Part shown: positions 23,295-28,063 of the stretch, piece after piece
Position numbering within the stretch: position 1 is the first letter of the stretch
Layout of the letters: each line of letters starts with the position of its first letter
Source of the DNA: a virus
Strand: one strand, 5' to 3'
Virus record (IMG/VR): IMGVR_UViG_3300032278_004256
Coordinates: 1-42,230 of that record
Length of the DNA stretch: 42,230 nt
The notes under the pieces: model-generated
What the model was told of the DNA's origin: nothing
Seen by the model: only the letters and a program-made list of their open reading frames with translations
The model's database searches: none
Program-made: the position numbers and the translations under genes

Positions 23295-24236
23295 ATGGGC
23301 CGAGCACGCGGCGCCAATGCGAAGGTCGCAGGCGCATTCGAAACCACCTACGGCACGGTGCCCGCTTCGGGTTTTATCCCGCTGCCCTTCGCGCGCGCCT
23401 CGCTGGGACCCGAACAGGGCCTGATCGAGGACGACCTCCTCGGCAACGGGCGCGAGAAATACGATCCGACGCAGGACGTGGTGACCAATGACGGCAATAT
23501 CGTCGTGCCGGTCGACCTGCGCAATTTCGGCCACTGGCTGAAGCTTCTGTTCGGTGCGCCGACCACAACCGGTGCCGATCCCTACACCCACGCTTTCGCC
23601 AGCGGCGCAGCCTCGCTGCCGAGCATGTCGCTCGAGGTACAGCTGCCCGACGTCCCGAGCCACGAGATGAACTACGGGATGCGCGGCAACTCGATGCAGA
23701 TCTCGATGGGGCGCTCGGGCCTGCTCAATGCGACGATCGAACTGGTCGGCAAGGGGGCAGACGATCGCGCGAGCGCAAGCGGTGCCGGGGTACTGGCGAC
23801 CGCACTGGCGCTCGCACGCTTCCGCCAGGCGACCGGCGAGATCACCCGCGAGGGCACCAAGCTTGGCTCGATCGTCTCGGCCGAGCTCAACTACACGAAC
23901 AATCTCGACAAGGTCGAGACGATCCAGCCCGACGGCGAGATCGAGGACGCCGACCCGGCGCAGGCGATGGCGAGCGGTTCGATCACCGCCCGCTACGACA
24001 GCCTGACGCTGCACAACGACGCGACCAACCGTACTCCGGTCTCGCTCACTTTCGGGTGGACGCTGGCGGGCGGCTACTCGCTGATATTCACCGCACCGAG
24101 GGTGTTCCTGCCGCGGGTCAAGACCCCGATCGATGGCCCGAGCGGGATCCAGTCGAGCCACAACTGGATGGCGTCGGGGCAGGACGGCAATTGCCTGACC
24201 GTCGAGCTCATCAACGACGTGGCGAGCTACAGCTGA
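23295..24236 (+). CDS. phage tail tube protein
   Basis: A 313-residue protein. MGRARGANAKVAGAFETTYG, GFIPLPFARASLGPEQGLIE, EKYDPTQDVVTNDGNIVVPV, and VPSHEMNYGMRGNSMQISMG follow the tail-tube pattern of siphoviruses with a C-terminal half of beta strands. It stands directly before the G/GT chaperone genes, as in lambda (V, G, T). GAGGAGA lies 8 bases upstream of the ATG. Confidence 0.85.
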   Translation: MGRARGANAKVAGAFETTYGTVPASGFIPLPFARASLGPEQGLIEDDLLGNGREKYDPTQDVVTNDGNIVVPVDLRNFGHWLKLLFGAPTTTGADPYTHAFASGAASLPSMSLEVQLPDVPSHEMNYGMRGNSMQISMGRSGLLNATIELVGKGADDRASASGAGVLATALALARFRQATGEITREGTKLGSIVSAELNYTNNLDKVETIQPDGEIEDADPAQAMASGSITARYDSLTLHNDATNRTPVSLTFGWTLAGGYSLIFTAPRVFLPRVKTPIDGPSGIQSSHNWMASGQDGNCLTVELINDVASYS

Positions 24237-24763
24237 TGCTGAGGCTGACCGGCACTGCGCCCGTCGAGATCGCGGTGGGCGACGCAAAAGTCACGCTTGC
24301 CGCGCCAAGTCCGCGGATCCTCGCCGCCGGGCGGCAGGCGGTCCGCAAGGCGCTCGACGAGGACGCCGATCTCGAACCGCAGATCGCCACGCTCGCCTTT
24401 TCCGAGGGTGTGCTGGCGGCGGCGATCACCGGGTGGGAAGGAATCGGGACCGCGGCCGGGCGCCAGCTCGAATGCACGAAGGCCAATATCGCGCTGGCAC
24501 TGCAGGACACGCTGTTCTTCGACACGCTCGATCGCGAATACGTGCTCCCGATCTACCAGCGGGAGCGGGAAAAAAACGCATCGGCCGTCTCCTCCGCTGG
24601 CACTTCGGCGGGGGCGACGGCGGGAAAGACTACTGCCGGCTCAGCTGCGGGTACCAAGGCCGTGGCGAAGGCGAAGGCGAAGAAGCCGACGAAGCGTTCG
24701 ACGAAGAGTTCGCCGCGCAGGACTGCGACGAAGAAGAAGACTGCTTCGAAGACGACACTGTAA
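24236..24763 (+). CDS. tail assembly chaperone (G-like), 0 frame
   Basis: A 175-residue protein. The first 114 residues (MLRLTGTAPVEIAVGDAKVT, then IGTAAGRQLECTKANIALAL) form the chaperone part. In the normal frame the remainder is an Ala/Ser/Gly stretch with a Lys/Arg-rich tail (KAKAKKPTKRSTKSSPRRTA). A slippery A AAA AAC at codons 113-114 allows ribosomes to shift -1 and make a 271-residue GT-like product. In lambda the ratio of G to GT controls tail assembly. The start overlaps the tail-tube stop (TGATG). Confidence 0.8.
   Translation: MLRLTGTAPVEIAVGDAKVTLAAPSPRILAAGRQAVRKALDEDADLEPQIATLAFSEGVLAAAITGWEGIGTAAGRQLECTKANIALALQDTLFFDTLDREYVLPIYQREREKNASAVSSAGTSAGATAGKTTAGSAAGTKAVAKAKAKKPTKRSTKSSPRRTATKKKTASKTTL
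24571..24620 (+). promoter_or_regulatory. -1 programmed frameshift signal
   Basis: Slippery heptamer A AAA AAC at 24571-24577, in phase with the 0-frame codons AAA-AAC (Lys113, Asn114). After a 7-base spacer comes a hairpin: 24585-24597 pairs with 24608-24620 (13 positions, 12 paired including one G-U, one mismatch) with a 10-base loop. This is the standard three-part layout of a -1 frameshift site. Efficiency is unknown. Confidence 0.85.
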
Positions 24764-25050
24764 GACGGCGCTGCGATCGCTGCCCCTACCGGATCGAGGC
24801 CCCGCAGTTCCTCGAGGGCGAGCTCGTCTACGATACCGCCCGGATGCTGAGCGGGCAGCTTCGCTTCGTCGCCGGGATGGGCGGCGGCGGGCCCACCGGG
24901 CTCGACATGAATGCCGCGCTCGCCCTGGGCGAGGTCCGCGGCTGCGACATGCAGCTGCTGGCCGACGTGCTGCCCGAACTCGAACGGGTGCTGGTGAGCC
25001 GGCACGCTCGCGACGATGCCGCCGACGACGAAGAGGGAGACGCGCAATGA
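24577..25050 (+). CDS. T part of the frameshifted tail chaperone (-1 frame)
   Basis: Codons read after the shift, starting at 24577, give 157 residues: first an acidic, Cys-containing linker (residues RIGRLLRWHFGGGDGGKDYC ... EADEAFDEEFAAQDCDEEED), then a compact domain (CDRCPYRIEAPQFLEGELVY, FVAGMGGGGPTGLDMNAALA) whose 'GGPTGLD' core I recognise from small phage tail-chaperone-type proteins (DUF7697-like). No convincing independent start exists at its beginning; the ATG at 24433 lies inside the G frame. The fused G-T protein would be 271 residues. Confidence 0.75.
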   Translation, partial: RIGRLLRWHFGGGDGGKDYCRLSCGYQGRGEGEGEEADEAFDEEFAAQDCDEEEDCFEDDTVRRRCDRCPYRIEAPQFLEGELVYDTARMLSGQLRFVAGMGGGGPTGLDMNAALALGEVRGCDMQLLADVLPELERVLVSRHARDDAADDEEGDAQ

Positions 25051-25238
25051 CCGACCTGCGCGCCTGCGGATCGCCGTGGCCGGAGAAGCTTCGCTTCAAG
25101 CCCCATCGGCCCGATCGAACGGTGCGCGACGAGGCGACAGGATTGCAACTGGCGGGCGGTGAAGACCTTGCCCGGCTCGACGCGCTGCTCGGCGCGATCG
25201 AGTGGGAGCTCAACGCGGCTGAAGGAAACGGCGGATGA
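25047..25238 (+). CDS. small hypothetical phage protein
   Basis: A 63-residue protein MTDLRACGSPWPEKLRFKPH, then RTVRDEATGLQLAGGEDLAR and LDALLGAIEWELNAAEGNGG. It is fixed by ATGA overlaps: with the end of the T frame and with the tape measure start. Possibly another chaperone-related protein. Function unknown. Confidence 0.6.
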   Translation: MTDLRACGSPWPEKLRFKPHRPDRTVRDEATGLQLAGGEDLARLDALLGAIEWELNAAEGNGG

Positions 25239-28063
25239 GTCGGGAAAGCGTCACCTACCGCCTCGGCGTCAGCGGGGATCAGGAGATCCGCGCCACGCTT
25301 GCCGCGATCGGCGAGAGCGGCGACAGTTCGGCCAAGCGGATCGCGCGCAGCTTCGAACGCGACATGCGCACCGTCGAGGCCACGGCCGATCGCGCGAAGC
25401 GGCGGTTCGAGCAGCTGCAGGCGCTCGGCGGCAGCGCGGTCCAGCGCCGCATCGCCGAGAGCACCGGGCTCGCGCAGTCCGAATTCGGGAATACCAAGAG
25501 CGCCGAGGCCTCGATGCAGGCGTTCGTGCGGCAGCAGGACGCGCTGGCGCGATCGCGCGAGCGGTTGATCGCGCAGGCCGATCCGCTGTTCGCGGCGCAG
25601 CAGCGCTACAATGCCACGATGGCAGAGGCGATGCGGCTCGATCGCGCCGGCGCGCTCGCCAAGGGCGATCTCGCCAAGGTGCAGGCGCGGGCCAAGGCCG
25701 AGCTCGACGGCGCGAGCAGCACGCTGCGCGGCCATACCTCGGCGATGGCGAACGCGACGAAGAACGCGAACCTGCAGCGGATGGGCTTCCAGCAACTGAG
25801 CTACCAGGTCGCCGACGTCGGTGCGTCCTATGCTTCGGGCATCAACCCGATGATCATCTTCGCGCAGCAGGGCACGCAGGTGGTCCAGTCGGTCGCGCTG
25901 ATGTCGAGCGCCAAGAGCAAGCTGGCGGCCTTCCTGACCGGCCCCTGGGGCCTCGCGGTGATGGGCGGCGTCTCGGTGTTGGGGATCCTCGCGACGTCGT
26001 ACCTTCGGAGCAAGAACGCCGCCGAGGACGCGAAGGATACCCAGTTCGATTTCGCCAAGGCTGTCGACTTCTCTCGCCTGTCGGTCGAAGAAATGTCGGC
26101 CGCGATGGACCAGCTGGTCAAGGATACCGAAGCGGCAATCCGGGTGCAGGGCGATTTCGCGCAGATGCGCCTGGTCAATGCCGAAGCTGCGGCTTCGGCG
26201 ATCGACGTCGATATCGCGGAGAAGCAGAGCGAGATCCGGGACGCACGGCGCAAGCGAAATAGCAGCCTGCTCGGTGGACCCGACTGGATCTGGTACAATA
26301 ACGAGATTGGCAACCTTCAGGCAGATCTGGCCGAACTGCGCAAAAAGCAGAAGCAGGCGCAGGATTCGCTGGTTAATGCGCAGATCGCGACCGCGCAGGC
26401 GCGCGTCGAAGAGGGGCTCGACCCGGTCGCGCAAGCGCGCGGCGAATTCGAGCGCAAGGTCGGCGAGCTCAACCGGCGCTTCGAGCTGAGCCGCGACGAC
26501 CCGATCAGCGCGAGCAATGCCGGCATCTACATCGACCAGGCCGGTTACGAGCGCGAGTTCAAACGGCTCGAGAAGCTCAAGAACAAGGCGATCGAGGACG
26601 CGCGCGAGATCGAGCGCGAGCGGCGCAAGACCGAGCGGGACAGCCCGGTCACGACCGCCGAGGTCGAGAAGATCCTCACCTCCGCCTTCCCCGGGATCCG
26701 GATCACGAGCCGCGGTCGCGACCCGAATTCGGCGCTCGGCAAGGCGAACCCGGGATCCTATCACAATGTCGGCCAGGCGCTCGATTTCGCGCGCATACCG
26801 GGGCTGACGATCGGGATGGTCGAGGACGTCCTCCGCGCGGCCGGGATCGAGGTCAAGGAAGCACTCGACGAATATGCCAACCCGTCGAAGAACGCGACCG
26901 GTGGGCATTTCCATGTCGCCTTCGGCGAGAAGCGCCTCGAGGGCGCAGCGCTGGTCGAACAGATCCTCGCCGAAGAGAAGCGGCTCGCCGAGGAACGCGA
27001 AACCAACGTCAAGACCCTGCGCACGCTGATGGAGCAGGGCGACCCGCTCCTCGTCATCGCGAACAAGCTCAAGGACGAACTGGCCGAGATCGATCGTCTT
27101 GCCGGCCTGACGCCGGCACAGGGCGGGATCGGGTCGGAGCAGGCCGGGATCCTGCGGGACCAGGCGCGGCAGCGCGCGCGCAAGGCCGAGCTCGAGACCA
27201 AAACCGCCGCGATCGGCCCGCAGCTCGATTACGCAACCAAGTATCTCGACGAGGCGGACGAGAAGGACGCCGATTACGCCAAGCGGCTCGGGGCGGCGAA
27301 GGCCGACCAGGCCGAGGCGATTGCTTTCCTCGAGCTCGAGGCCAAGCTGGTCGGCGCTACCGTGCAGGAACGCGCCGCGGCGATCGAGCAGTTCGAATAC
27401 ATGGCCGACCTCCGGCGGCAGGGGCTCGACCTCTCCGACGAGGAAGTGCGCAAGCTGATCGAGGGCAATGCCGAATGGTTCCGGCGACGCGGGCTGATCG
27501 ACGACGCCAACGAGACGCTCGAGCGGCAGCGTGAGATCGGCGAACGGGTGATCGACACGCTGCTCGATCCATCAGGTTGGGACGACTGGGGCGAGATGGG
27601 CAAGCGCGTGATCAACATGCTGATCCAGGAGCTGATGCTGCTGGCGGTGATCAACCCGCTCAAGAACTCACTGTTCGGAACCGACTACGCCACGATCGGC
27701 GACGGCGGGATTTTCGGTTTTCTCGGCGGGATCTTCGGCGGCGGCAAGGCCGGCGGTTCCGAATACACGCAAGGCGGCTTCTTCGAGGTCGGCGAATTCG
27801 GCAAGGAGCTTGTCCGCCTGCCGCGCGGATCGCAGGTGGTGAACGCCAACCGGACCCGCGCGATGGAGCGCCCGGGCGGCATGCGGCCGGTGATGCATTT
27901 CGACCTGCGCGGTGCGCTGATGACCGAGGATATCCTGCGCCAGATGCAGGCGATGGCCGACCGGGCGGCCGAGGATGGCGCGATGCGCGGAGCTTCGCGC
28001 GGGGTCGAGCAGATGATCGATCTCAACAAGCGCACCTTCGGCGGCGCGCTGGCGCCGGTCTGA
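25235..28063 (+). CDS. tape measure protein with embedded M15-like peptidase
   Basis: A 942-residue tape measure protein. The N-terminal third is helical with SYQVADVGASYASGINPMII, FAQQGTQVVQSVAL and hydrophobic helices (WGLAVMGGVSVLGILATSYL) typical of lambda-like tail length proteins. Residues about 470-570 contain SYHNVGQALDF (508-518) and GHFHVAFG (557-564), the H...D and HxH zinc ligands of M15-type peptidases, so the protein probably also cuts peptidoglycan during DNA injection. The remainder is coiled coil with a C-terminal Gly-rich region (GGIFGGGKAGGSEYT). ATG overlaps the previous stop. Confidence 0.88.
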   Translation: MSRESVTYRLGVSGDQEIRATLAAIGESGDSSAKRIARSFERDMRTVEATADRAKRRFEQLQALGGSAVQRRIAESTGLAQSEFGNTKSAEASMQAFVRQQDALARSRERLIAQADPLFAAQQRYNATMAEAMRLDRAGALAKGDLAKVQARAKAELDGASSTLRGHTSAMANATKNANLQRMGFQQLSYQVADVGASYASGINPMIIFAQQGTQVVQSVALMSSAKSKLAAFLTGPWGLAVMGGVSVLGILATSYLRSKNAAEDAKDTQFDFAKAVDFSRLSVEEMSAAMDQLVKDTEAAIRVQGDFAQMRLVNAEAAASAIDVDIAEKQSEIRDARRKRNSSLLGGPDWIWYNNEIGNLQADLAELRKKQKQAQDSLVNAQIATAQARVEEGLDPVAQARGEFERKVGELNRRFELSRDDPISASNAGIYIDQAGYEREFKRLEKLKNKAIEDAREIERERRKTERDSPVTTAEVEKILTSAFPGIRITSRGRDPNSALGKANPGSYHNVGQALDFARIPGLTIGMVEDVLRAAGIEVKEALDEYANPSKNATGGHFHVAFGEKRLEGAALVEQILAEEKRLAEERETNVKTLRTLMEQGDPLLVIANKLKDELAEIDRLAGLTPAQGGIGSEQAGILRDQARQRARKAELETKTAAIGPQLDYATKYLDEADEKDADYAKRLGAAKADQAEAIAFLELEAKLVGATVQERAAAIEQFEYMADLRRQGLDLSDEEVRKLIEGNAEWFRRRGLIDDANETLERQREIGERVIDTLLDPSGWDDWGEMGKRVINMLIQELMLLAVINPLKNSLFGTDYATIGDGGIFGFLGGIFGGGKAGGSEYTQGGFFEVGEFGKELVRLPRGSQVVNANRTRAMERPGGMRPVMHFDLRGALMTEDILRQMQAMADRAAEDGAMRGASRGVEQMIDLNKRTFGGALAPV

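Follow-up and report, generated by a model that had tools for sequence, protein, structure and literature searches.

In phage lambda, the proteins G and GT are found at a ratio of about 30:1, where G binds the tape measure protein and T binds the tail tube subunit (PMC5009743). The frameshift in the tail chaperone genes is conserved in dsDNA phages, according to the statement in PMC5009743 that cites Xu, Hendrix and Duda 2004, and the paper describing the Rhodobacter phage RcKemmy (PMC8601537) also refers to a frameshift as usual in tail chaperone genes. In the deposited genome of RcKemmy (MW677517, RcC cluster), gene 16 is given as a joined tail assembly chaperone CDS.

The tail gene locus and the G protein

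The window discussed here is the complete stretch of 42,230 nucleotides of the IMG/VR record IMGVR_UViG_3300032278_004256. It belongs to a tailed phage that is kin to prophages of Sphingomonas and allied genera. The order of the genes is tail terminator, tail tube, G, T frame and tape measure. The major tail tube protein (23295..24236, + strand; Pfam Phage_tube_2, E 5e-51) is encoded directly 5' of G, and the ATG start codon of G at 24236 overlaps the TGA of the tail tube gene. The tape measure protein (25235..28063, + strand) is encoded downstream, as identified by matches with TMP_2 of Pfam at E 2e-10 and with several tape measure PHROGs. A 63-aa ORF (25047-25238), without a Pfam or PHROG match, is located between T and the tape measure gene and overlaps each of them by ATGA.

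G (24236..24763, + strand) is the zero-frame product of 175 aa, and it is identified as a tail assembly chaperone by its ORF, by its predicted model and by its match with phrog_313, 'Tail assembly chaperone' (E 8e-7), which is also matched by 23 of the 35 aligned members. The model of G is confident (pLDDT 94.5) and it matches predicted phage tail chaperones, the best match in BFVD being a tail assembly chaperone (E 3.7e-5, probability 1.00). The HK97 chaperone (PDB entry: 2ob9) is the second-ranked match of this model, with an rmsd of 4.5 over 91 residues, a sequence identity of 13% and a Z of 4.7, which is weak by the yardstick of the tool. No credible match is obtained when solved structures are searched by sequence with the G and T profiles, and there is no match in NCBIfam. 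An initial sequence-only reading of this DNA had placed a frameshift element at the location where lambda-like phages shift, and this is in agreement with Phage_tube_2 upstream, TMP_2 downstream and the phrog_313 match of G.

The slip site and the switch of the coding constraint

The slippery heptamer A_AAA_AAC is found at 24571..24577 (+ strand), inside a run of seven A (24570-24576). Across this site, the zero frame reads GAA AAA AAC (codons starting at 24569, 24572 and 24575), such that the phase fits tandem slippage by -1, as had been read from the sequence. From the slip site onward, the -1 frame has no stop codon until 25048-25050, and the zero frame, coding for G, stops at 24761-24763. 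AAAAAAC is the sole copy in the window when both strands are searched; because 0.80 copies are expected by chance per window in dinucleotide shuffles, the lone heptamer is not significant, and it is the comparison with relatives that decides.

This comparison concerns 86 sequences, being the window and 85 relatives (five prophage loci, with Sphingomonas, Pseudolabrys and Ruegeria as hosts, one faecal phage locus and 79 viral contigs), which share phylogeny and are not independent samples. Relatives among the viral contigs were not found by a single-sequence search, whereas an alignment search did recover relatives. The viral contigs were seeded with the peptide pattern [RA]L[AL]xW[HE][FW]GG, which gave 590 matches, of which 513 were confirmed; the best 80 of these 513 were retained and 79 were usable. 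The pattern is located five codons 3' of the slip site, and therefore the contig set is not selected on the slip nucleotides. At the homologous position, all 86 sequences have a canonical heptamer: A_AAA_AAC in 82, G_GGA_AAC in three and A_AAA_AAG in one of them. Exchanges of this sort, from one canonical heptamer to another, are expected under selection for slippage.

GT could also be generated by transcriptional slippage, where RNA polymerase inserts one A in the A-run and ordinary translation then gives GT, as would be compatible with the seven-A run of the window and of most relatives. However, there are only six A in L002, L020 and L058, and just three A in the GGGAAAC of L012, L039, L045 and RcKemmy; moreover, an RNA hairpin, for which polymerase slippage has no need, is conserved downstream at a near-fixed distance. 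These features make transcriptional slippage very improbable when compared with a ribosomal shift.

The substitution patterns in pairs of close relatives concern the coding constraint on both sides of the site. On the 5' side, the third positions of the G frame take 4743 of 6712 substitutions, and on the 3' side the third positions of the T frame take 3555 of 6697 substitutions. At the slip site, the coding constraint of the G frame gives way to that of the -1 frame. The T sequence is also conserved from its first residues, as visualized by the pattern KKR..LA.WHFGGG....YC in the alignment. The beginning of the T frame at the slip site, as suggested by the sequence-only reading, is in agreement with this onset of conservation.

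Independent translation of T, by re-initiation or coupling from a start codon within G and without a frameshift, would use GTG 24433 or ATG 24472, which are the only T-frame start candidates 5' of the slip site in the window. Neither is preceded by a Shine-Dalgarno-like sequence, which agrees with the earlier view that the T frame has no convincing start of its own. In addition, 30 of the 50 non-redundant sequences have no ATG, GTG or TTG in the stretch that runs from the upstream T-frame stop to the conserved LxxWHFGG, and in L002 this upstream stop is only 9 nt 5' of the slip site. Also considering that the conservation of the -1 frame starts at the slip site, the probability of such an independent start is close to nil. 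A Shine-Dalgarno-like stimulator upstream of the slip site was also considered; the window has GGGAG 5' of the site, but this region is not conserved in the relatives, and this candidate was rejected.

The predicted stem-loop and the choice of the slip codon

The programmed -1 frameshift at A_AAA_AAC would be assisted by a stem-loop; a stimulatory RNA structure 3' of the slip site is frequent, though not general, in frameshifts of the lambda G/GT type. In the predicted fold, a spacer of 6 nt (24578..24583, + strand) is followed by a probable stimulatory stem-loop (24584..24621, + strand), with arms 24584-24599 and 24606-24621, forming 15 pairs (24584-24589/24616-24621 and 24591-24599/24606-24614) and one U/C mismatch. 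The folding energy of 24578-24640 is -32.7 kcal/mol (z -2.76 versus dinucleotide shuffles), and one of 200 shuffles is as stable. The sequence-only reading described a 7-base spacer and a hairpin of 13 positions with 12 pairs; these parts are present (24585-24597 with 24608-24620), but the predicted optimum is slightly longer, and the spacer was counted as 7 nt because the outermost pair had been left out.

In 49 of the 50 non-redundant sequences, the natural hairpin exceeds the T-frame synonymous recodings in stability (median z -2.3). This count is not a formal probability, because the sequences are related and because the recodings do not keep the G tail where one is present. In these recodings, the T-frame protein is held and the codons are redrawn. 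The excess of stability is seen in all 14 non-redundant sequences in which G ends right after the slip site; these have no G tail, and therefore there is nothing from G to constrain the hairpin sequence, whereas in the other 36 sequences the G tail is not preserved by the recodings. The hairpin is constrained beyond T-frame coding, and its predicted stimulatory role is probable. Covariation in a fixed register was tested as further support and is weak: the pairs changed on both sides number three, versus 2.5 in shuffles, and a stem slid by two columns scores higher than the predicted register, because the pairing register shifts among the relatives. The alignment with related phages, proposed earlier for examining the slip site and the stem, shows the former as canonical throughout, but the covariation of the latter is only weak in fixed columns.

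In 26 of the 86 sequences, the G stop codon is at most three codons from the slip site, showing that a long G tail is dispensable; the downstream conservation in these short-G sequences is there for T and the hairpin only. An example of such a sequence is L028 (2504-2520), and likewise L031, L042 and L050, ending for instance as AAC GCC TGA.

Another in-phase heptamer, G_GGA_AAG, overlooked in the sequence-only reading, is found in the window at 24622-24628, immediately 3' of the stem. G_GGA_AAG is the slip heptamer of lambda, but a shift at, or additionally at, this in-phase site has a negligible probability, as it is missing from every aligned relative and its use would lose the conserved KKR..LxxWHFGGG segment.

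The second slip codon is AAC, rather than AAG, in nearly all relatives. E. coli has only one tRNA-Lys, and its constructs with A_AAA_AAC are much less shift-prone than those with A_AAA_AAG (PMC5009743); for this reason the efficiency of the shift may be modest. Among the hosts of the five prophages, four have tRNA-Lys(CUU) in their genome, and the fifth has UUU only, by a strict pattern. Together with the single A_AAA_AAG among the 86 sequences, this is the basis for a tentative and rather doubtful suggestion that the slip site of this lineage is tuned to hosts that have a dedicated tRNA-Lys(CUU), AAG being avoided in favor of AAC with a strong hairpin as compensation; the relation is a correlation over five genomes of related hosts.

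The T domain and the comparison with known systems

The T frame (24571..25050, + strand, with its stop codon at 25048-25050) is the -1 frame ORF that would code for the C-terminal part of GT. It starts with KKRIGRLLRWHFGGG, has a Cys motif and matches the DUF7697 profile (PF24752) with 49.3 bits, at a curated cut-off of 27. This profile is matched by all 35 aligned T members, and DUF1799 is matched too in three relatives. The conserved cysteines (24634-24783) form the pattern YCxx(x)C ... CxxCP, in which residues 22, 68 and 71 are invariant in the 35 sequences, and this motif, being near the start of T, suggests a metal-binding knuckle. The T model is of moderate confidence (pLDDT 81.6), without a convincing match in the PDB by Foldseek, and DUF7697 was not found by name in the literature searched. 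The T sequence of the window has an acidic, low-complexity insertion of about 36 residues (24661-24771), which is not present in any of the 34 aligned relatives, and the same DNA in the zero frame codes for the Lys/Arg-rich tail of G. A selected charge contrast between this basic tail and the acidic T was considered and rejected: 16 of the 35 sequences are above the T-frame synonymous recodings (median z -0.05). The G tail and its counterparts in these recodings are similarly basic, and the basic tail is thus a by-product of acidic T codons read one base on.

Taken together, the gene order, the homology of G, the canonical heptamers in 86 of the 86 sequences, the switch of the codon positions, the hairpin constraint and the joined CDS of RcKemmy all point to a programmed -1 frameshift. 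Almost certainly, the slip site and hairpin serve to yield GT in addition to G. That a -1 frameshift element joins the G and T frames, as first proposed from the sequence, is upheld by the phase, the open frame, the heptamers, the frame switch and the hairpin constraint. Most ribosomes would finish G at the stop codon ending at 24763. A minority would be held up by the stem-loop (24584-24621) while AAA occupies the P site and AAC the A site, and these would slip one base back on A_AAA_AAC and read the -1 frame to 25050. The resulting GT would have 271 aa, with the zero-frame residues Glu-Lys-Asn joined to Arg-Ile-Gly-Arg of the -1 frame. If the roles are as in lambda, the tape measure protein would be bound by G and by the G portion of GT, and tail-tube subunits would be recruited by the T portion. 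We infer the occurrence of the shift, the production of GT, the GT:G ratio or efficiency and the role of T from these comparisons. The domain of unknown function DUF7697 would thereby gain a role, as the T part by which frameshifting extends a tail chaperone.

The tail genes of the window are best annotated as G and GT. In the Nostoc phage Nsp-JY21 (L089:1627-1860), the second chaperone CDS is annotated from an internal start, well inside T, although the T frame of this phage can be read starting at the A-rich slip site near 1500. Automated T calls from internal starts, as in Nsp-JY21, drop the first conserved part.

The signal is real but ordinary, being a well-known phage device conserved in dozens of relatives. 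When compared with genes 15/16 of RcKemmy, the gene order is the same and the T domain is homologous (48% over 77 aa, with a related query); the slip site of RcKemmy differs, being G_GGA_AAC, and a hairpin is present. The window shares with the lambda G/GT system the placement after the tail tube gene and before the tape measure gene, the two overlapping frames and, as here predicted, the -1 shift and the fusion protein GT. It differs from lambda in having A_AAA_AAC instead of G_GGA_AAG as the heptamer, in its strong, conserved hairpin and in having DUF7697 as the T domain. Judged by its sequence, the system of the window is a programmed -1 frameshift of the lambda G/GT type, which is a known kind.
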